A stretch of DNA of 64,000 nucleotides from positions 310,001-374,000 of the forward strand of contig NZ_SMLM01000003.1 in the NCBI RefSeq assembly GCF_004682015.1. Direction: 5' to 3'. Position numbers and translations under genes: made by a program. Positions 4,954 through 19,157 of this stretch are shown here, one piece after another. The first letter of the stretch is position 1; every line of letters begins with the position of its first letter. The notes beneath the pieces were generated by a model. The model did no database searches and was not told where the DNA came from. It saw only the letters and a program-made list of their open reading frames with translations. The DNA is from Ramlibacter henchirensis. Its GTDB lineage: Bacteria > Pseudomonadota > Gammaproteobacteria > Burkholderiales > Burkholderiaceae_C.

Positions 4954-5028
4954 GGGTGATTAGCTCAGCGGTAGAGCACTGCCTTCACACGGCAGGGGTC
5001 ACATGTTCGATCCATGTATCACCCACCA
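4954..5028 (+). tRNA. tRNA-Val (anticodon CAC)
   Basis: A complete cloverleaf can be drawn: acceptor GGGTGAT (4954-4960) pairs with ATCACCC (5018-5024), the D arm contains GCTCAGCGGTAGAGC, the anticodon stem is CTGCC/GGCAG with loop TTCACAC (anticodon CAC, reading GTG), and the T arm is ACATG-TTCGATC-CATGT. The discriminator is A and the CCA end is encoded. The 3' 47 bases are the attachment site of the neighbouring island and are repeated at 18936-18982, so integration leaves the tRNA intact but replaces its downstream DNA. Confidence 0.97.
4982..5028 (+). repeat. attL core (3' end of tRNA-Val)
   Basis: The 47 bases from the anticodon stem to the encoded CCA match 18936-18982 at every position; the match stops on the base before and the base after. 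Sites of this length in a tRNA 3' end are typical targets of tyrosine integrases. Confidence 0.93.
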
Positions 5029-5134
5029 TCTGACAGCCAAAAGTTGTTGGGTGACAACGAGTTAGGTTCACGCTCGCAGCGATTCATCGCAACCGCACCA
5101 GCCTTCCAAGGCAGTGCCCTTACGGAGAATCGAA

Positions 5135-6046
5135 GTGCCCCGACTCGCTGCTTCACGCATGCAATTTGACCTCGCTGCCGCCGTCAAGGCCATCGAGGAT
5201 CGTCCCCCTTCCAATCACACCCTGCGCGAGCTGGTGCAGGCGTTCAGCGCCGCCACCGCTGGCGACGCCGACCTGCGCCTTCGCAAGTGGCTCGACGCCT
5301 TCGGCGAGCTGCCTGCGTGGGACGTGAAGGCCGATGAACTGCAGAAGGCCGCCGACGCCATGCGGCAGGCTGGCTACGCTCCAGCGTCCGTCAACCGGGA
5401 CCTGTCGGCGCTCGGCAGCGCCTACAAGTGGGCCAAGAAGAACCGCCTGTGCCCGCGCGGGTTCGTCAGCCCCACGACGCAGATCAGCCGCTCGCCCGAG
5501 CCGATCCGCCGGGTGCACGTCGAGCCCGCCGTCATCGACGCGGTGCGCAAGCTGGCCCTGATCTACCCCGACGCGCGGTTCGGCGTGTACGTGTCGCTCC
5601 TGATCGACACCGGCGCGCGCAAGTCCGAGCTGCTGCGCCGCTATGGCCGTGACCTCGACCTGGAACGCTGCGAAGTCCTCGCCCCGGTGACGAAGAACGG
5701 CACGCCGCGCGTGCTGATGTTCCGCGACTCCACCTCGACGCTCATTCGCCGTGTCTACAAGAGCATCGACCCCGACCGGCTGCTGTTCGAGGGCAGGGTG
5801 CGCGGCCAGCCGATCAACTTTCGCAAGGCGTGGGAGTTCGTCACGCGCGAGGCGGGCAGGCCCGATCTGCGCATGCACGACCTGCGCCATGTGCGCGCCG
5901 CCGACTTGCTGCGATCTGGCGAGTCGGTGGCGGTCGCCGCGCAGGTCCTCGGTCACGATGCCGCCGTTTTGACGCGCCGCTACGGTCACCTCGAAACGCG
6001 CGCGCTCAGGCAGGCGCAAGAACGGTCGTGGGCGCAAGCTGCCTGA
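5135..6046 (+). CDS. int: tyrosine-type site-specific integrase
   Basis: Recombinase expected to integrate and excise the island at tRNA-Val. The catalytic set of the phage-integrase family is complete: Arg162 in TGARKSEL, His248-x-x-Arg251 in MHDLRH, His274 in VLGHD and the nucleophile Tyr283 in RRYGHL. The first ~100 residues look like a SAM-like core-binding domain (VNRDLSALGSAYKWAKKN). The GTG at 5135 is chosen because GGAG lies seven bases upstream; a longer frame from GTG 5114 adds seven residues without a ribosome site. The protein has 303 residues, compact for the family. It is next to attL and reads away from the tRNA, followed by a hairpin terminator. Confidence 0.93.
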   Translation: MPRLAASRMQFDLAAAVKAIEDRPPSNHTLRELVQAFSAATAGDADLRLRKWLDAFGELPAWDVKADELQKAADAMRQAGYAPASVNRDLSALGSAYKWAKKNRLCPRGFVSPTTQISRSPEPIRRVHVEPAVIDAVRKLALIYPDARFGVYVSLLIDTGARKSELLRRYGRDLDLERCEVLAPVTKNGTPRVLMFRDSTSTLIRRVYKSIDPDRLLFEGRVRGQPINFRKAWEFVTREAGRPDLRMHDLRHVRAADLLRSGESVAVAAQVLGHDAAVLTRRYGHLETRALRQAQERSWAQAA

Positions 6047-6497: not shown

Positions 6498-8897
6498 ATG
6501 CAGATCAAGATGACGGTCTTCGACGACGTGAATGCGCTACAGCGGCGCGAGCGCGTCGTGCACTGGGATGATCTGGCGCGCGAACTGATGTCGCCCCCGC
6601 AGTACGCCAGCAAGGCGGCAATGCCGCTTCTCAAGCTCGCTACATTCGGCGACCATCGCAGTGCGCAGGGCTCGGTGCGCTGGGACGCCAACGTGCGCGA
6701 AGTGCACGGCATCGAGGGTGACTACGACACCGAGGTCACCAGCGTCGAGCGCGCGCACGACATCCTGACGCGCGCGGGCGTCGAAGCACTCCTGTACACG
6801 ACGGCCCGCAACGAGCCCGGCAAGCCACGCTGGCGCGTCCTGTGCCCGCTCTCAACCCCTTGCGTGCCACACGACCGGCGCGCGTATGTCGGCATCCTGA
6901 ACGAGATTCTCGGTGGGGTTCTCGCGGACGAGAGTTTCACGCTGAGCCAGAGTTTCTACTATGGTGCTGTGAGTGGCTGCGAGTTCAAGGCGCTGCGCTC
7001 TTCGGGCCGTTGCATCGACGACTTCTCGCTTCTCTACGATGGCGTGTTCCCTACGGAAGATCGCCATGAAGCGAACGCAGAAGACATCGATGCGGCTGTT
7101 CGCGCGCTCGCGTTCGCGAACGTCACCGACGAGACGATGCTGGACATCCGCTCCGCTGTTGCCGCTCTCAGGCCTCACCGCTACGAGCAGGGAAGCTACC
7201 TCAAGTGGTTCGAGATCATCCTGGCGTTGAATAGCCTGCGTTTCGCCAACCGCGAGGCCGAAGCCCGCAACATCGCAATTGAGTTCAGCCGCAGGGGCGG
7301 CGCGGCTTTCGACCCGCGCGCCTTCGACCGCCTGTGGCGTGAGGTCCCCAAGCGTTACACCTACCGCACGATCTTCAAGCGCGCAGCCGAGGACGGCTGG
7401 GCGAATCCTCGCGCGTCTGCAACGCAGCCTGACCGAGCCGATGGTGGGCGCGTCGATCACACCGACAGCGGCAACGTCAACGCGCTCTACGAAGAGACGA
7501 AGGGCGACCTGCGCTATGTCGTCGAGCGCAAAGTGTGGCTGTGGTGGACCGGGTGCGGCTGGCAAGTGGACGAGTCAGGCAGCCGCGCCCGCGACGCAGC
7601 ACTGAAGGTCGCCGAACGCTACTGGACCGCTGCCGCGACGCTCGAAAAAGATGCGGATCGCCTCGATGGCGAGGAACGTAAACACGCTCAAAAGCTCGCA
7701 CGAGCCGTGCGCTCCTGGGCGCTGCATTGCCGGAACAAGAAGGGCCTCGACAACATGCTCGCGCTTGCCGCGCGTGACTCGCGCTTTGCCGTGAGTGCCA
7801 CGGAGCTTGATCTCGACGTGTGGGCACTCGGCGTCGCGAACGGAGTTGTCGATCTGCGTACCGGGGTCCTGCGCGCCAACAGCCGCGAGAACTTCATCAC
7901 GAAGAGCTGCAACTGCCGCTTCGACCCCGATGCCGGTGCGCCTGCATGGCGCGACTTCATCGCAAAGATCACCGGTCTGCCGGATGGCCCGAACTGCTTC
8001 ATTCCTCGCCCTGAGCTGGCAAGCTATGCCCAGCGCGCGATTGGATACTGGGCGACGGGTTCGACACGCGAGCAGAAGATGTTCGTTGCCGTTGGCGACG
8101 GCTCGAACGGCAAGAGCGTGATGTTCGACGTGATCGAACACATCCTCGGCCCCTACTGCGTCCAGGTTCCGCCCGATGCGATGATGGCTTCGAGCCGCGA
8201 TGCAGATGCGGAACGCCCGACCCCGGTGGCGCGCAGCCTGGCTGGCGCGCGGCTCGCCTTCGGCAGCGAAGCGAAGGAACGGCACAAGCTGAACGCCGCA
8301 TGGGTCAAGAAGCAAACCGGCGACGGGAAAATGACCGCGCGCGGCATGCACGAGAACACGTTCACGTTTTCCATTACTCACAAGCTCGCGCTGCTGACGA
8401 ATCACGAACCGCAGCTCGATCACATGGATGAGGCCACTCGTGGGCGCATTCACACTTGGCCGTTCGACCGCCGCTGGAACCGCCCGGGCTTGTCGAGGCG
8501 TGACCCTAACCTGCCTGACGGTGACAAGGACCTGAAAGAGAAGCTGCTGGCCGAAGGCGAAGGCATCCTCGCATGGATCGTCGCTGGGGCCGTCCTCTAT
8601 TGCCGCGAAGGGCTGGAACCGCCTGCGCCGGTGGCCGAGCGAACTGTCGCCTACTTCGACCAGCAGGACGCGCTTGTGCAGTGGCTCGCCACGACGGAGA
8701 AGTGCGCGCTGGCCGAAGGCACACGCGCGAACGAACTGTTCGAGTCTTACAAGTCGTGGTGCGGGGTCGAGGGATTCACGCCGACGCCCTCGAACGTAGC
8801 CTCATTCGGGAAGCGTCTGAAATCGACAGGTTGCGAGTACGAGCGCGACAAGGCCGGCAGCGTCTACGGCCTTCGTGTCGGCACTCCGACGTTCTGA
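6498..8897 (+). CDS. phage/plasmid primase-helicase (P4/D5 type)
   Basis: A 799-residue replication protein. The N-terminal ~170 residues look like an archaeo-eukaryotic primase-polymerase domain (acidic EGDYDTEV pair, then FYYGAV). Residues ~210-305 match a PriCT-2-like helical region (WFEIILALNSLRF ... TYRTIFKRAAEDGW). The C-terminal half is a D5/SF3-like helicase with Walker A GDGSNGKS at ~533-540, an acidic region near LAFGSEAKERHKLN and sensor residues LLTNHEPQLD. Such proteins start and unwind replication of satellites like P4 and of some integrative elements. It suggests the excised circle replicates on its own. It starts 15 bases after the small gene upstream. Confidence 0.88.
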   Translation: MQIKMTVFDDVNALQRRERVVHWDDLARELMSPPQYASKAAMPLLKLATFGDHRSAQGSVRWDANVREVHGIEGDYDTEVTSVERAHDILTRAGVEALLYTTARNEPGKPRWRVLCPLSTPCVPHDRRAYVGILNEILGGVLADESFTLSQSFYYGAVSGCEFKALRSSGRCIDDFSLLYDGVFPTEDRHEANAEDIDAAVRALAFANVTDETMLDIRSAVAALRPHRYEQGSYLKWFEIILALNSLRFANREAEARNIAIEFSRRGGAAFDPRAFDRLWREVPKRYTYRTIFKRAAEDGWANPRASATQPDRADGGRVDHTDSGNVNALYEETKGDLRYVVERKVWLWWTGCGWQVDESGSRARDAALKVAERYWTAAATLEKDADRLDGEERKHAQKLARAVRSWALHCRNKKGLDNMLALAARDSRFAVSATELDLDVWALGVANGVVDLRTGVLRANSRENFITKSCNCRFDPDAGAPAWRDFIAKITGLPDGPNCFIPRPELASYAQRAIGYWATGSTREQKMFVAVGDGSNGKSVMFDVIEHILGPYCVQVPPDAMMASSRDADAERPTPVARSLAGARLAFGSEAKERHKLNAAWVKKQTGDGKMTARGMHENTFTFSITHKLALLTNHEPQLDHMDEATRGRIHTWPFDRRWNRPGLSRRDPNLPDGDKDLKEKLLAEGEGILAWIVAGAVLYCREGLEPPAPVAERTVAYFDQQDALVQWLATTEKCALAEGTRANELFESYKSWCGVEGFTPTPSNVASFGKRLKSTGCEYERDKAGSVYGLRVGTPTF

Positions 8898-12567: not shown

Positions 12568-12948
12568 ATGAGCAATCAACGCGACTTAATCCAAGCGCAG
12601 GCGTTGGCCGAGGAGCTACGACGTTTCGCGAAAGAGCGCGATTGGGATCAATTTCACTCGCCTAAGAACCTGATCCTGGCGTTAGTCGGTGAGGTCGGCG
12701 AGCTTGCCGAGATTTTCCAGTGGATGCGCGAGGACGAGTCTGCCCGCGCCGCATCCGATCCCCGGACATCAACCGCTGTTCGAGAAGAGCTGGCCGATGT
12801 CACGTTGTATCTCGTGCGGCTCGCAGACGTTCTTGGCGTCGATCTAGACGACGCAGTGCGTCGCAAGCTGAAGGCCAATGCAGAGAAGTACCCGGTGGAA
12901 ACCGCTCGTGGTAGCAGCAAGAAGTACAACAAGCCGCCGCAGCCATGA
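12568..12948 (+). CDS. MazG-like nucleotide pyrophosphohydrolase
   Basis: A 126-residue all-alpha NTP pyrophosphohydrolase resembling the dCTP-pyrophosphatase (XTP3TPA/RS21-C6-like) group of the MazG superfamily. The metal-binding acidic motifs are present: GEVGELAEIFQW (E-x2-E) and EELADVTLYLVRLAD (E-x2-D). Such enzymes hydrolyse (d)NTPs to the monophosphate and pyrophosphate. Its stop codon overlaps the next gene by four bases (ATGA), so the two are translated together. Pairing with a nuclease-helicase suggests a defence function acting on phage nucleotides or a nucleotide signal, rather than housekeeping. Confidence 0.9.
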   Translation: MSNQRDLIQAQALAEELRRFAKERDWDQFHSPKNLILALVGEVGELAEIFQWMREDESARAASDPRTSTAVREELADVTLYLVRLADVLGVDLDDAVRRKLKANAEKYPVETARGSSKKYNKPPQP

Positions 12949-14846
12949 TCGTCTATCAATCAGACAAGCGCGAGTTCCTTCACGACAACGACCACCGCGA
13001 CATCCAGGATGTTATTCACGACCGCTTTCAAGCGGCCACCGGCCGTCGGGTAGGGGGCAGCGAGCTGAGTTCATGGCGTGACTCGCTGAACGCATTGGCG
13101 AAGGTGCTGAGGGATCGCGACATCCCGGACGACCTCGGCGTCGCAGTGGAATTCGTGCTGCCGCAAAGCACGAAGCGGATCGATGTGATTCTCGCTGGGC
13201 ACCACGAAGACGGCACCAAGCGCATCGTCGTCGTTGAGCTGAAAGGCTGGACAGATGCGAAGGCGACGAAGAGTGATGGCATCGTCACTACGCGGCTGGG
13301 TGGCGCTGAACGATTCACAGTGCACCCGTCGTATCAGGCGTGGTCCTATGTGGCGTTCTTGGAGGGCTTCAACGAGGCGGTGTACGAGGGGGGAATTCGC
13401 CTTCAGCCATGTGCGTACCTGCACAATTTCGACACTCCCGGGGTTTTGGACAGCGACCACTACAAGCCTTACGTCTCGAAAGCCCCCCTATTTCTGAAAG
13501 GTGAAGCGGACCGCGAGACGCTGCGCGCCTTCATCAAAGAGCACGTCAGGCATGGGCGAGGAAAGTCGATCCTGTACGAGGTCGAGAAGGGCCGCATCAG
13601 GCCCTCTAAGGCGCTTGCCGATTCAGTGGTCAACCTGCTCAAGGGGAACAGCGAGTTCACGTTGCTTGACGACCAAAAAGAGATCTACGAAGCGGCGCTG
13701 GCTGCTTGCCGACAGGCCAGCACCAGTTCGCGCCGTGTGGTGATCGTAGAAGGTGGCCCCGGTACGGGCAAATCGGTCGTCGCGGTCAACCTGCTCGCCG
13801 CATTGCGACATGGCTTGAACGTGAAGTACGTCTCGAAGAACGCCGCGCCGCGTGAGGTCTACAGCCATCAACTCGCGCAGGGTCCCGGCAATGCACACTT
13901 GGCAAACCTGTTCACGGGTTCCGGTTCCTTTATGAACTGCCAGCCAGCCGCGTTCGATGCGCTGATCGTTGACGAGGCGCACCGACTGACCGAGAAGAGC
14001 GGCTTCTATCAGAACGAAGGTGATCATCAGATCAGGGAGATCATCCGAGCCGCAAACTGCGCCATCTTCTTCATTGATGACCGCCAGCGCGTCACGCTCA
14101 AAGATGTCGGCAGCGTCGAATTGATTCGCCAGCTCGCCGAGGAGCAGGGTGCGTCCGTCGAGCAGTACAAGCTACGTTCGCAGTTCAGGTGCGCCGGGTC
14201 AGACGGCTACCTGGCTTGGCTGGACAATACACTAGGCATCGAGGAGACGGCGAATGACTCTCTAGACGGAGTCCGCTACGACTTCCAGGTGTTCGATGAC
14301 CCGGCTGACATGCACGCAGCAATCGAAGCGAAGAATGCAAACAACAAATCGCGCGTAGTGGCAGGCTACTGCTGGAAGTGGGCCAGTAGAAATGATCCAG
14401 CAGCCGATGACATCGTGATCGGCAGCTACCGACGGCAGTGGAACCTGCTGGATCAAGGGAGCCTCTGGCTGGTGTCACCAGACTCGAGCGCGCAGGTGGG
14501 TTGCATTCACACCTGCCAAGGGCTCGAGCTGGACTACGTTGGAGTGATTATTGGGCCTGACCTCGTTGCAGGCCCGACCGGCACGCTCAGGTCTGTGCCG
14601 CGCGCACGCGACCGCCATGACAAGACAATGAAAGGCTACGTCACTATGTCGCGTGACGACCCTGAAGGTGCGTACCGCGCGGCAGATCGAATCATTCGGA
14701 ACACGTACCGAACGCTGATGACCCGAGGAATGAAGGGGTGCTACGTGTACGCCACGGATTCTGCCCTCAGAGAGCACCTGCGGTCACGAATGAGGGATGC
14801 AGTCGTTGTCGCGGCCGGCGAAGAACAGTCGCAGGCAGCAAAGTAG
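12945..14846 (+). CDS. nuclease-helicase, DUF2075/Schlafen-like P-loop protein
   Basis: A 633-residue fusion. The N-terminal ~200 residues carry a PD-(D/E)XK pattern (RIDVILAG near residue 78, then VVVELKGW at ~96-102), fitting a DNA/RNA nuclease. The rest is a superfamily-1-like helicase of the DUF2075 type: Walker A GGPGTGKS at ~270-277, Walker B LIVDEAHR at ~341, and a late QGLELDYVGVIIG motif near 525. Proteins with this build are often coded in variable islands next to MazG-like enzymes. The ATG overlaps the MazG-like stop; an HNH nuclease gene starts 12 bases after its end. I infer an invader-restricting role. The substrate is unknown. Confidence 0.85.
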   Translation: MIVYQSDKREFLHDNDHRDIQDVIHDRFQAATGRRVGGSELSSWRDSLNALAKVLRDRDIPDDLGVAVEFVLPQSTKRIDVILAGHHEDGTKRIVVVELKGWTDAKATKSDGIVTTRLGGAERFTVHPSYQAWSYVAFLEGFNEAVYEGGIRLQPCAYLHNFDTPGVLDSDHYKPYVSKAPLFLKGEADRETLRAFIKEHVRHGRGKSILYEVEKGRIRPSKALADSVVNLLKGNSEFTLLDDQKEIYEAALAACRQASTSSRRVVIVEGGPGTGKSVVAVNLLAALRHGLNVKYVSKNAAPREVYSHQLAQGPGNAHLANLFTGSGSFMNCQPAAFDALIVDEAHRLTEKSGFYQNEGDHQIREIIRAANCAIFFIDDRQRVTLKDVGSVELIRQLAEEQGASVEQYKLRSQFRCAGSDGYLAWLDNTLGIEETANDSLDGVRYDFQVFDDPADMHAAIEAKNANNKSRVVAGYCWKWASRNDPAADDIVIGSYRRQWNLLDQGSLWLVSPDSSAQVGCIHTCQGLELDYVGVIIGPDLVAGPTGTLRSVPRARDRHDKTMKGYVTMSRDDPEGAYRAADRIIRNTYRTLMTRGMKGCYVYATDSALREHLRSRMRDAVVVAAGEEQSQAAK

Positions 14847-14858
14847 GGGTGATCGAGA

Positions 14859-15905
14859 ATGCGTTACTCAGTTCTTGACAATGATGGGAATCCGCTGGAC
14901 GCCCACTTTGAGATCGACTCTTCTGAGATAGTTTTTCATTCGCGCGGCGGAGCAAAGGGCCAGGACGCTCGGAACTCGCAGTACGAGGCTGGCCTGAGGC
15001 TCTTAGTTGGCCGACTGCGTTCAGCTCAGGTCGTGCTCAGTGGCGCGTTTGTTGACAGTAGCCAGGTGAAGTCAGTGCCGCTGGAACAGCGCCGAATCCT
15101 AAGCGCCGCTGAGGGTGCGACGACGGCAGAAGAGGTCTGCAAACTTCTGGCATCTCGGATGAAGGTGTTCGGACAGTCGCCCTCGGCATCAGGCGGGAAC
15201 TCGACGAAGAGGATCCGCATCCGGCTGTCGGCCCCATTTCAGCTCACTGATGAGAAGGTGGTCGATGTAGTTGCAGCCGCGCCGGAGCGGCTTCCTGCAT
15301 CGCAGCTTGAGAAGGTCGGCGCTCAAGACCTCCTGTTCGCGGTCGAGCAACTGCTTGCAGGTGCATCGCATAGGTTCGGGGAGTCCACCGACTACGACGT
15401 GCTGCTTGACACCGGCAAGCGGCTTCCTCCTAAAGCCATCTTCGGGATCGCTGCGACGCGCGCGCTGGGCTTCTCGGTCCTACCGGGGCACTTTTCAGGA
15501 GGCGTCGGCACCCCATGCTTCAAGGCACTAGAGGGCGCGGGTTATCAGATTGTTCCGAAGGATGCGCCCGATCCTGAAGTCCCTCGCGAAGCGGCAGATC
15601 GCGAGTACGTCGAAGGCACCCCGAAGCTGCGGTCGCACCTGCGAAAAGAACGTCGAAGTGGCCTTGCGGCGGCGAAGAAGGACGAGTTCAGGCAGGCGCA
15701 CGGTCGATTGTTCTGCGAGCGGTGCGAAATGGATCCCGTGAAGGTGTACGGGGACAGCAGCGGAGAGGCGTGCATCGAGGTGCACCACCGTGCCGTGCAG
15801 GTGCAGGACATGGCACCTGGTCACAAGACGAAGCTGTCAGACCTCAAGTGTCTCTGCGCGAGCTGCCACAGAGTCGTGCACAGGCGCCTTCAGCAAGAGA
15901 GCTGA
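14859..15905 (+). CDS. McrA-like HNH endonuclease
   Basis: A 348-residue protein with a C-terminal HNH/zinc domain: CERC near residue 287, the catalytic-type IEVHHR near 307, and LCASCHRVVH near the end, giving two CxxC pairs around the beta-beta-alpha core. The middle segment (LPPKAIFGIAATRALG ... GHFSGGVGTPCFKALEGAGYQIV) resembles the N-terminal head domain of ScoMcrA, a type IV enzyme that cuts modified DNA. The N-terminal ~120 residues are unrecognised and could bind DNA. Last gene of the apparent MazG-nuclease-HNH operon. Type IV restriction is the favoured reading, with moderate confidence. Confidence 0.82.
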   Translation: MRYSVLDNDGNPLDAHFEIDSSEIVFHSRGGAKGQDARNSQYEAGLRLLVGRLRSAQVVLSGAFVDSSQVKSVPLEQRRILSAAEGATTAEEVCKLLASRMKVFGQSPSASGGNSTKRIRIRLSAPFQLTDEKVVDVVAAAPERLPASQLEKVGAQDLLFAVEQLLAGASHRFGESTDYDVLLDTGKRLPPKAIFGIAATRALGFSVLPGHFSGGVGTPCFKALEGAGYQIVPKDAPDPEVPREAADREYVEGTPKLRSHLRKERRSGLAAAKKDEFRQAHGRLFCERCEMDPVKVYGDSSGEACIEVHHRAVQVQDMAPGHKTKLSDLKCLCASCHRVVHRRLQQES

Positions 15906-15940: not shown

Positions 15941-16276
15941 TCAGGCAGACGCTCGGATCCACGTCTCAGAGGGGCTGCCTGGCTTCACCTTCTTTCGTCG
16001 GCTGAGAGCTTCCCGAAAAATGTCGAGGATCTCCCGATCCCGCTCGACGCAGCTGAGCAGAGCCCCTGCGAGTACGAGTACGTCCGCCTTGTCGAGCATG
16101 AGGTACTGGCACTTTCCATCATCTGCCTCGAATACCACCCCGACACTGCCGCGAATCCCGTTCGGCTCGTTCCGCCCACGGTAGTGATGGAGCTGGACCC
16201 GAACCTGCTTCTTCTCATGCGGCTTGGAGCGGACAAAATTTCTTCCAATCAAGAACTGTCGTGTCAGTTTCGCCAT
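15941..16276 (-). CDS. unknown protein, antisense to its neighbours
   Basis: A 111-residue minus-strand frame with ordinary protein-like composition (ending RKKVKPGSPSETW). It starts with ATG at 16276 behind GGAG, in convergent orientation to the HNH gene 35 bases away. A competing plus-strand frame over the same bases has poor composition and begins inside the HNH gene. The strand pattern (GVVFEADDGKCQYLML) suggests a small beta-rich domain. No family recognised. It separates the HNH cassette from the three-gene cassette. Confidence 0.55.
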   Translation of the reverse strand: MAKLTRQFLIGRNFVRSKPHEKKQVRVQLHHYRGRNEPNGIRGSVGVVFEADDGKCQYLMLDKADVLVLAGALLSCVERDREILDIFREALSRRKKVKPGSPSETWIRASA

Positions 16277-16638
16277 GGCCTGCACCGTCTCCTGCCTCGT
16301 CAAGCGACCTCGCCGAACTTATTCGATCGAAATCGCAGTTCGGCACACGTTACGGCTGAAGAGCGTACCGGCTGCCCCGCTAATCTGAACTGGCTGTGTG
16401 GATCCGCGGCCCCACTGGACCTCACCGTGCTCGCCCCACGTAGCCTCGACATCGCCACTGACTCGCAAGTGCTTGAAGAGGGGGCTTCCGCCAATCTACG
16501 TCTATGAGGCTTCGACACGTTGACACCACTGGATCGTTAACCTATGTCAGAGTTGCAGGATGGGAATCCAGCAATTGCTGAGCTACGAGATGGTGTGTCA
16601 CCATTCGGCAGGCGGCGCTCAAAGCGTCCGGGGGATGC
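16277..16638. other. non-coding stretch between divergent island genes
   Basis: No convincing frame on either strand. It must hold the promoter of the minus gene ending at 15941 and that of the three-gene operon starting at 16639. It is richer in A+T than the host genes. Confidence 0.6.
16520..16548 (+). promoter_or_regulatory. candidate promoter of the three-gene MBL operon
   Basis: A perfect -35 TTGACA (16520-16525) is followed after 17 bases by TATGTC (16543-16548), a half-matching -10. The expected leader to the ATG at 16639 is about 85 bases. Confidence 0.45.
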
Positions 16639-17313
16639 ATGCCGACGTCTTTTGAAAACAAAGGTTCCACTGTCGTAGTCGCGGGGAGCTTCGCGCCGTC
16701 GATGTTTCACCCATTGTGGTTCCAAAGCAACGATCTGCTTGGCAAGCAGGAGACCAAGGCGGCAGCCGAGAAGCAAACACTGTTAGTCAGCGACGAGCTT
16801 ACGGTGTTCAGCGTGGCCGGCATGGACTTCCATGTCCGCGCGGATCGGATTCAGGTTGGAACCGCGCAAGAGAACCTGTTCGGCCCCGTTCGTGATCTTG
16901 TGATTGGCACCATGCAGTTGCTTGAGGCTTCCACAGTGCGAGCCGTAGGCATCAACTGGACCGCCCATTTCAAGCTGCCATCGCGAGATGCATGGCACGC
17001 TGCAGGGCACAAAATGATTCCATATGAGTTTTGGGCGCGGACGTGGACCAAACATGTGGGCATGAGGAACGTCACTGTCGAGCTAGAGCGCAAAGATGGA
17101 CGCGGTGGTTATGTGCAAGTCACAGTGCAGCCATCCAATGTGGTCGAATCGGGCGTGTATGTGTCCGTCAATGATCACTACGATATGGCTAAAGAAGGGG
17201 AGCCGAGCACGGGCGCGCAATCGGCGAGCTTGCTGCAAGATCAGTGGGACGGTTCACAAAAGATCGCTATGGAGTTGCTTGAGCAAATTCAGAAGGAGTG
17301 CGTAAGTGGTTGA
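16639..17313 (+). CDS. unknown protein, gene 1 of the MBL operon
   Basis: A 224-residue soluble protein I cannot assign. It has alternating strands and a conserved-looking Trp/His core (VRAVGINWTAHFKLPS, HAAGHKMIPYEFWARTW) and no signal peptide or membrane segment. The pattern recalls the scattered TIGR04255-type proteins, but that comparison is from memory and weak. The start ATG follows GGGG. Its stop overlaps the next gene by eight bases. Presence as the first gene of a tight operon at the cargo end of a mobile island makes a sensing or adaptor role in defence plausible. Confidence 0.75.
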   Translation: MPTSFENKGSTVVVAGSFAPSMFHPLWFQSNDLLGKQETKAAAEKQTLLVSDELTVFSVAGMDFHVRADRIQVGTAQENLFGPVRDLVIGTMQLLEASTVRAVGINWTAHFKLPSRDAWHAAGHKMIPYEFWARTWTKHVGMRNVTVELERKDGRGGYVQVTVQPSNVVESGVYVSVNDHYDMAKEGEPSTGAQSASLLQDQWDGSQKIAMELLEQIQKECVSG

Positions 17314-17854
17314 GACATCGGAAGTCTCCGCTAAGCAACAGCGGTTCACCTCCTCCACGGCAAGACTCGACCAGATCACGGGTCGGCTTCCGCGCGCTCA
17401 TTCGCTACTGCCCGAGCTTGGCAATACGGCCCCGCTTCGCCATGACGTGAAGTCTGAAGAAACGGCACTACGCGGACGTCCACAGCCCGCCACTTCTTTC
17501 AAGACACTTGAATCGTGGGTCTGCAAAGTTGAATCTGTTGATGCGGCTGCGGGGACGTTCACGGCTGTAGCTGCAAGCGACCGGCAGGGCGGACTTCAGG
17601 AGCACGCAGAATTTCAGCTTGACGAACTGTCGGCAGATGACGTCGGCTTAGTTGAGCCTGGCGCTGTCTTCTACTGGTCTGTGGGATACCAAATTGATGA
17701 GTTCGGCGGCCGAGTTACTGCGTCTGCCATTCGCTTCCGGAGATTGAGGCATTGGACTCGCAGAGAACTTGACGCAGCGAAGGTCCGAGCTGCCGGGTAC
17801 GCGAAGTGGTTCGTGGGAGAAATGGGAGATGCCGGGACCGCCGCTGCCAAATGA
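17306..17854 (+). CDS. unknown protein, gene 2 of the MBL operon
   Basis: A 182-residue protein without a recognised domain. The first 60 residues look disordered; the rest (SWVCKVESVDAAAGTFTAVAASD ... GAVFYWSVGYQIDEFGGRVTASAIRFRRL) looks like a small beta-barrel, followed by a C-terminal helix. AAGGAG lies seven bases before the GTG at 17306, which decides the start. It overlaps gene 1 by eight bases and gene 3 by 26, implying coupled translation and perhaps a complex. The function is unknown. Confidence 0.75.
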   Translation: MVETSEVSAKQQRFTSSTARLDQITGRLPRAHSLLPELGNTAPLRHDVKSEETALRGRPQPATSFKTLESWVCKVESVDAAAGTFTAVAASDRQGGLQEHAEFQLDELSADDVGLVEPGAVFYWSVGYQIDEFGGRVTASAIRFRRLRHWTRRELDAAKVRAAGYAKWFVGEMGDAGTAAAK

Positions 17855-18893
17855 ACTCGAACTTACTCTGATTGGTCCAAATGTCGGTGAGAGCGTCATT
17901 GCCCACTACCAAGGCAATTGGTTTCTTTTCGATAGCTGTACGGATCGGAAAACTGGCGAACCGGCTGCCCACGTTTATCTAACGTCCATCGGGGTCCAGC
18001 CGGAACAAGTCCGTGTGATCGCCTGCACCCACTGGCACGACGACCACTTCCGTGGACTCGGTAGGCTTAGCGAGGTTTACTCGCACGCTCAGCTTTGGAT
18101 GTCACACGCGCTCCGACGCGAAGAGTTCATCGACGTGGTAGAGGCGTGGCGCAATTTTCCTTCTGGAGCTTATCCACACACTTCGGGCCTTGAGGAGTTG
18201 ACAAAGTGCGTGGACATCGCACGTGAAAGGAACAGGCCGCCAATGTTTGCGTCCCACGACAAGCGTATGTGGCTGTCAGAGGATGGCACTGGAGAGCTGT
18301 GGTCGCTTAGCCCATCGGCGGCGATGATCGTAAAAAGCCAACAAGACATCGCAGCTCTGTTCCCCGCGACCTGGTCAATCAAGAAAGCGGCAGCCGAGAG
18401 TCGACCGAATCACATCGCAGTTGCAATGCATCTGCGCGCGGGAAATCACTCGATCATTTTGGGATCTGACCTTGAAGAAGAGGGCGATCCTCAAACGGGA
18501 TGGAGCGCAGTGATTGCGAGCACGGCGAAGCCGCCGCAGCGCGGGAGTCTGTACAAAGTCGCGCATCACGGCTCTGAAACTGGGCACCACGGCGGCATTT
18601 GGACCAGCTTACTTTCGGCAAGGCCAGTGGCCGTACTAAGTCCTTTCTCGCGCAGTCACCTGCCGCGCGACTCGGACGTGACCCGCCTAAAGGGGCTGTC
18701 GTCAGCGGTGTACATAACTGCCAAGCGAGGGAAGACTGAGGTGAAGCGTACCGGCGCAGTGGGCAAGTTCACGCAGCAGAAGAAGCTGCGCGTAATTGCC
18801 GGGCTCGCGGGGGCCGTGACCTGTCGAATCGACGCGAGTAATCCGGCAGCCGAATGGTCGATTCAGCTCGAAGGGCTGGCGGAGAAGCTGTAG
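17829..18893 (+). CDS. MBL-fold metallohydrolase, gene 3 of the MBL operon
   Basis: A 354-residue metallo-beta-lactamase-fold enzyme. The dinuclear metal motif is His68-Trp-His70-Asp71-Asp72-His73 (THWHDDH), followed by LGSDLEEEG and VAHHGSE, as in ComEC-like and related hydrolases. There is no signal peptide or membrane segment, so it acts in the cytoplasm; the substrate could be a nucleotide, nucleic acid or other ester. The ATG at 17829 is preceded by GGGAG; a longer frame from 17769 overlaps gene 2 more deeply. It is the last gene before attR, about 40 bases away. Confidence 0.85.
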   Translation: MPGPPLPNELELTLIGPNVGESVIAHYQGNWFLFDSCTDRKTGEPAAHVYLTSIGVQPEQVRVIACTHWHDDHFRGLGRLSEVYSHAQLWMSHALRREEFIDVVEAWRNFPSGAYPHTSGLEELTKCVDIARERNRPPMFASHDKRMWLSEDGTGELWSLSPSAAMIVKSQQDIAALFPATWSIKKAAAESRPNHIAVAMHLRAGNHSIILGSDLEEEGDPQTGWSAVIASTAKPPQRGSLYKVAHHGSETGHHGGIWTSLLSARPVAVLSPFSRSHLPRDSDVTRLKGLSSAVYITAKRGKTEVKRTGAVGKFTQQKKLRVIAGLAGAVTCRIDASNPAAEWSIQLEGLAEKL

Positions 18894-18935
18894 CCGCTTG
18901 TGCTACGCTTGCGGCTCGTTCGCTTGCGGGCGTGT

Positions 18936-18982
18936 CCTTCACACGGCAGGGGTCACATGTTCGATCCATGTATCACCCACCA
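18936..18982 (+). repeat. attR copy of the tRNA-Val 3' end
   Basis: Exact 47-bp copy of 4982-5028. The 5' half of a tRNA is absent upstream of it, so this is not a second tRNA gene but the right junction of the island. Confidence 0.93.
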
Positions 18983-18990
18983 ATCTGAAA

Positions 18991-19026
18991 ACTCCGTAAG
19001 TCCCTGACTACGGAGTTTTTTCTTTT
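18991..19026 (+). terminator. terminator downstream of attR, probably the tRNA-Val's own
   Basis: Stem ACTCCGTA (18991-18998) with TACGGAGT (19009-19016), then TTTTTTCTTTTT. It lies eight bases after the repeated CCA end, just where a tRNA terminator would be in the empty site. Confidence 0.85.
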
Positions 19027-19157
19027 TGGCATCGTTCCCGAATCAGCCGGAAAGCCAAACAGGTCTACGCCACATCGGATGCTGATCGCAAGGCTCACGC
19101 CGCGGCTAAGGAGATCCTGCAAGCCAAGAGGGATGACCTGGCTGGCAAAGCGTTCGC

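Follow-up and report, generated by a model that had tools for sequence, protein, structure and literature searches.

A conserved three-gene cassette of mobile elements with a predicted ComEC-type metallo-beta-lactamase nuclease and a likely role in phage defence

Introduction

Metallo-beta-lactamase (MBL) nucleases are emerging as common effectors of otherwise unrelated bacterial immune systems. In PMC12799240, MBL proteins of this general type act as DNases in defence; the nucleases of the systems described there, which include Avs1a of AVAST, HamM of Hachiman and CanC of Canu, are switched by a protease, and further nuclease homologues are reported to pair with other protease families. Here we describe a locus of three overlapping genes, A, B and C (the trio), that lies in a 64,000-nt stretch of the Ramlibacter henchirensis genome (GCF_004682015.1, contig NZ_SMLM01000003.1, positions 310,001-374,000, forward strand). 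This whole stretch is called the window, and all coordinates are positions within it (Table 1). Protein C is predicted from profiles to be a ComEC-type MBL nuclease. We consider it rather probable that the trio is a conserved mobile-element cassette which protects against phages, and that A and B hold C idle and release it on infection.

Avs1a, HamM and CanC share with the trio a ComEC-like MBL effector, a mobile locus and extra residues inserted after the HxHxDH motif, ahead of the aspartate ligand, and Canu is likewise a three-gene operon, canABC, with the nuclease gene last. The trio differs from them in that no recognisable trypsin-like or caspase-like protease was seen in the 35 A and 38 B proteins scanned, that A and B fall in no named family, and that the second insertion of C is small. 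The effector is, to judge by its profile relatives, of a kind already known, whereas its partners A and B were identified by none of the libraries searched. If our reading is true, a prophage-borne trio that lacks a recognisable protease would represent a second way to gate an MBL nuclease. It would also give a role to phrog_36401, phrog_29493 and phrog_28593, the phage families that match the trio and are now listed as of unknown function. The trio is small, occurs in Escherichia coli and is directly testable.

Results and Discussion

Conservation of the gene order

All three genes are present, in the order A-B-C and on one strand, in 46 of the 51 loci examined, which makes the trio a real unit, beyond chance. 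Seven of these loci (L019, L030, L031, L033, L037, L044 and L047) are exact repeats of another locus's A and were dropped, leaving 39 non-redundant trios. The commonest A-B overlap among these is 4 bp (18/39, with starts taken from the longest open reading frame, ORF). The trio spans Pseudomonadota, Bacteroidota and Verrucomicrobia, and the named hosts include Bacteroides, Adhaeribacter, Lichenibacterium, uncultured Verrucomicrobiales and E. coli. An earlier reading of this DNA made from its letters alone (the sequence-only reading) had left it to be seen whether the trio keeps its order elsewhere and whether it matches a metabolic operon: the synteny is strict, and no known metabolic operon is matched.

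The loci were collected by searches of several kinds. Single-sequence protein searches gave two relatives for A and four for B, and with an alignment of 35 A proteins as query 13 relatives were listed, of which three were already known. With tblastn, one record was obtained from 72,556 plasmids, that of Adhaeribacter swui, in which A, B and an MBL gene stand in a row; three tblastn queries against 50,697 phage records gave no match. Whole-genome searches revealed four further A loci (398 genomes) and three further B loci (369 genomes), and all seven proved to be A-B-C trios. When viral contigs were scanned with the alignment of C, 32 loci were found, every one with A and B just upstream (32/32); 30 of these are complete, and in the other 2 C runs off the contig end. 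The species-genome scan gave at least 6 loci, and among the matches listed there were five trios and one weak match (L053) that is not a trio. A search of 299 genomes with C added one more copy, which is decayed and has an internal stop.

When the viral contigs were scanned with B, 4 loci were found, of which two (L044 and L047) are on contigs already known through C and two (L045 and L046) have B without A. At L045 a 26-residue scrap of C is found beside B. On this viral contig (L045:6534-9501) the B gene lies between a gene for an AAA/SMC-like ATPase and one for a calcineurin-like phosphoesterase.

The alignments used below contain 35 A, 38 B and 30 C proteins (A7, A8 and A9, respectively). 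Duplicates, plasmid copies and some genome copies were excluded, as were the short or cut C proteins of L027, L036 and L043 (from A9) and the FtsZ-fused B of L049 (from A8).

Protein C

Protein C matches Pfam Lactamase_B (8.1e-10). The residues H68, H70, D72, H73, D214, H246 and H247, which we take to be metal ligands from what is known of the MBL fold, are kept in 30/30 aligned members, and they are invariant too in five aligned plasmid and genome copies. The profile of the 30 members matches solved structures of the ComEC/Rec2 nuclease domain (8.8e-11 and 4.4e-9), and the C family and the ComEC domain show the motifs NN, LLxAD(I/L)E and K(V/I)PHHGS in the same order; the C protein of the window alone gives no match to the ComEC/Rec2 structures. 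The sequence-only reading had taken the THWHDDH motif as a sign of an effector hydrolase, a view that is supported by the profile relatives of C, namely the nuclease domain of ComEC and MBL effectors of anti-phage systems (DRT, Lamassu and AVAST).

In spite of the shared motif series and the match of the family profile, C differs from ComEC/Rec2 in being a stand-alone protein that is encoded in an accessory operon and stays under the ComEC model cut-offs; with the full-length ComEC model NF008580 the window C scores 32.5 bits against a cut-off of 969 bits. The spacing of the motifs differs as well. The stretch from the H motif to D214 is 25-52 residues longer in the C family than in ComEC 9ic4, and the stretch from D214 to HH is 2-11 residues longer. 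A Glu in the first of these insertions is near-invariant (29/30).

Several profiles of defence systems recognise the family. Using the PADLOC profiles at 1e-3, LmuA is matched by 29/30 C proteins, RTasMBL by 28/30 and Avs1a by 4/30, and the window C matches none of the three. No reverse transcriptase or Lamassu genes were seen among the scanned window proteins or in the A and B families, a scan that did not take in the flanks of the other loci. In NCBIfam, at E <=1e-3, Avs1a (NF041809) is matched by 13/30 C proteins (best E 1e-5) and 6A-MBL (NF058524) by 15/30; the window C is absent from both at this threshold. Among those listed, the best score for Avs1a is 20.6 bits, far below the curated cut-off of 420 bits, and the best for 6A-MBL is 28.5 bits (the C protein of L028), well under the cut-off of 220 bits.

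Near the C terminus of C an Ala is kept in 28/30 members, in a column that is three or four residues from the end in 21/30. The shared C-terminal tail is possibly a docking tail.

Proteins A and B

No convincing Pfam, PADLOC or NCBIfam family was found for A or B, and neither has a match in PADLOC 2023. The two proteins had defied assignment in the sequence-only reading, and they are likewise identified by no library model here. The AlphaFold2 model of A (predicted local distance difference test, pLDDT, 95.8; predicted template modelling score, pTM, 0.90) suggests a duplicated beta-alpha-alpha-beta-beta-beta-alpha fold, i.e. an alpha/beta saddle. B is predicted to form an oligonucleotide/oligosaccharide-binding (OB)-like barrel at residues 64-144 followed by a C-terminal helix, with a low-confidence N terminus. 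OB-like folds are typical of single-strand nucleic-acid or protein binding.

The E. coli homologue of A, WP_000143147.1, carries the RefSeq label 'anti-phage protein' (2/14 E. coli records), which suggests that others may already have evidence for such a role. The ECOR29 variant of E. coli A is labelled 'hypothetical' in RefSeq.

An example of an unusual B was found in a metagenome-assembled genome of Alphaproteobacteria (L049:1321-3030). There the B domain follows both FtsZ domains (Tubulin GTPase, 1e-49; FtsZ_C, 2.2e-35) as an in-frame fusion, and the fused gene stands between A and C, overlapping A by 4 bp. The fusion may be genuine, in which case it would suggest FtsZ as bait or anchor, or it may be a chimera of the assembly.

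Proposed function and alternatives

A defence role of the trio is likely in view of the RefSeq label on A, the kinship of C, the DNases described in PMC12799240 and the mobile setting of the loci. This agrees with the sequence-only reading, in which the trio was taken for a compact defence module. We infer that A and B would act together as a sensor-switch, which senses phage DNA or a phage-altered host component, keeps C idle and releases it on infection. The insertion of 25-52 residues may serve as a gate over the active site of C, and the released C would cut DNA, so that phage or host DNA is destroyed (abortive infection). Activation of C would proceed through binding and not through proteolysis; we prefer binding, since no resemblance to a protease is seen in A or B.

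A more specific version of this mechanism can be put forward only tentatively, as we hold it less probable than its opposite. Here the trio would provide a protease-free MBL-nuclease immunity in which a sensor pair from two new families, A with its duplicated saddle and B with its OB fold, opens a gated ComEC-type DNase, and the variable N-terminal tail of B serves as bait. The trigger would be the binding of phage nucleic acid or of a phage-hit host protein. That the variable tail of B could be a bait is hinted by the alphaproteobacterial B that carries both FtsZ domains.

It is unlikely that C is a gated pro-nuclease activated by proteolysis, with A or B as an unrecognised protease and the trio as a branch of the HamM/Avs1a/CanC systems. 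Profiles link C to MBL effectors of the kind found in these systems, C has the long insertion before the aspartate ligand with the near-invariant Glu, and the other protease families that PMC12799240 reports beside nuclease homologues are in line with such a scheme. However, no peptidase family turned up in profile searches of the A (35) and B (38) members, no Ser, Cys, Thr, His or Lys occurs in the columns with >=90% conservation in A or B, and the second insertion of C, at 2-11 residues, is small.

Activation by binding in a defence cassette, which is the reading we favour, also has to be weighed against an addiction module. In such a module A and/or B would neutralise C, a toxic nuclease, and the prophage or island would be retained in this way, phage protection being secondary. 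The mobile setting and the strict co-transmission would suit it, and so would the overlapping genes in which the would-be toxin C comes after the would-be antitoxins; a toxin gene after the antitoxin gene is the commonest layout of addiction modules. On the other hand, there are three genes and not two, A or C is absent only from the small number of scraps and decayed copies that were seen, and A carries the RefSeq anti-phage label, so we regard the addiction module as quite unlikely. It is very unlikely that C hydrolyses a small nucleotide or other ester instead of DNA, with A and B as substrate-binding or targeting partners: weak matches extend to further MBL families (RNase Z, lactonases, glyoxalase II), but in structure-sequence comparison the C profile has its best match in the nuclease domain of ComEC, where the motifs NN, LLxAD(I/L)E and K(V/I)PHHGS recur.

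Distribution and mobile setting

The trio is accessory and largely mobile. A is present in 0/36 congeners searched, in 2/300 genomes of the order and in 5/398 genomes of the phylum, the own genome being counted in the latter two, and the trio is thus not mainly a core-genome feature. The places in which it occurs include a tRNA-bounded island, prophages, plasmids and the neighbourhood of integrases.

Among 5426 E. coli genomes, 14 have near-identical trios. When the trio of L022 was used in a distant search, 17/5426 matched, i.e. the same 14 and three more at 68-69% identity, which cover part of the query and in no case reach 80% coverage. In all five E. coli prophages that were opened (5/5) the cassette has antiterminator Q on one side and the holin on the other, and it is encoded on the opposite strand to the late genes; for one of the five, SX45, the sequence match covered B and C only. 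At two other loci (L015 and L048) the trio directly adjoins integrases. At L008 its neighbours are an integrase and a VapE-like protein, and at L011 they are Zot and Rep genes. Plasmid copies occur in Adhaeribacter and Pantoea, only C being matched in the latter. Note that the viral collection was built from viruses only, and its count is therefore uninformative on the prophage share. Two genomic copies (L009 and L061) have no mobile gene nearby, the ORFs having been judged by eye.

Another genomic trio (L060:7742-10392) starts approximately 300 bp past a tRNA-Thr gene, and no attachment repeat was found there. In E. coli E8 (L062:28021-29594) the trio-bearing prophage also has HipA-family kinase and DUF3037 genes, and both of these domains are among the newly validated defence domains (PMC13092281).

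The Ramlibacter island

In the window, the trio closes a 14-kb island that is opened by an integrase and a P4-type primase and bounded by perfect 47-bp direct repeats (4982-5028 and 18936-18982). P4-like satellites and lambdoid prophages carry defence cargo. The location of the trio is comparable, at the end of a tRNA-integrated island with P4-type primase here and in the Q-holin slot in E. coli, whereas A and B, as said above, have no counterpart in PADLOC 2023. The P4-like satellite features present in the island are the integrase, the P4-type primase and the tRNA attachment site.

The G+C content is lowest in the trio (0.573), higher in the island (0.611) and highest in the flanks (0.676 and 0.686). 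The genes A and B overlap by 8 bp, and B and C by 26 bp if C begins at its ATG; the open frame of C extends back to a TTG at 17769. The lower G+C, the two overlaps and the place at the cargo end of a mobile island had all been pointed out in the sequence-only reading, and they were reproduced here, the last of them through the repeats, the tRNA-Val target and the short distance from the end of C to the right repeat. In contrast, its 'good -35 box' is not supported in that form: a TTGACA hexamer is present at 16520, 119 bp before A, but a search of 16200-19100 gave no sigma-70-like hexamer pair (0 versus 1.0 expected from shuffles).

Table 1. Features of the trio and of the island that carries it (window coordinates).
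Feature	Position	Strand	Remarks
Gene A	16639..17313	+	224 aa; ORF
Gene B	17306..17854	+	182 aa, GTG start; ORF
Gene C	17829..18893	+	354 aa, ATG start; ComEC-type MBL-fold predicted nuclease
THWHDDH metal motif of C	18027..18047	+	residues 67-73
HHGS motif of C	18564..18575	+	residues 246-249; aligned to KVPHHGS of ComEC
TTGACA hexamer	16520..16525	+	119 bp before A; no matching -10 found
tRNA-Val (CAC)	4954..5028	+	integration target; ARAGORN
Left attachment repeat	4982..5028	+	47 bp, 3' end of tRNA-Val gene
Right attachment repeat	18936..18982	+	47 bp, identical to left; starts 42 bp past C stop
Tyrosine integrase of island	5114..6046	+	Pfam Phage_integrase 1.9e-16
P4-type primase/helicase of island	6498..8897	+	TIGR01613 188.3 bits (cut-off 108.7); D5_N
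MazG-like pyrophosphohydrolase, island cargo	12568..12948	+	Pfam MazG-like 4.4e-17
Schlafen-group-3 helicase domain protein, island cargo	12945..14846	+	Pfam 2.6e-97; PADLOC PDC-S41 1.2e-12, AbiO 8.6e-11
Weak HNH-type protein, island cargo	14859..15905	+	HNH E 0.014 (below cut-off); mREase_IV 6e-4

Upstream of the trio, the region 12568-15905 of the same island, with its MazG-like, Schlafen-group-3 helicase and weak HNH-like genes, resembles a second defence cluster, and the Schlafen-group-3 helicase domain protein is possibly defensive. Finally, on contig C6 of the congener G771 the 47-bp end of tRNA-Val occurs three times without a mismatch, as though several islands were stacked in a row at this site.
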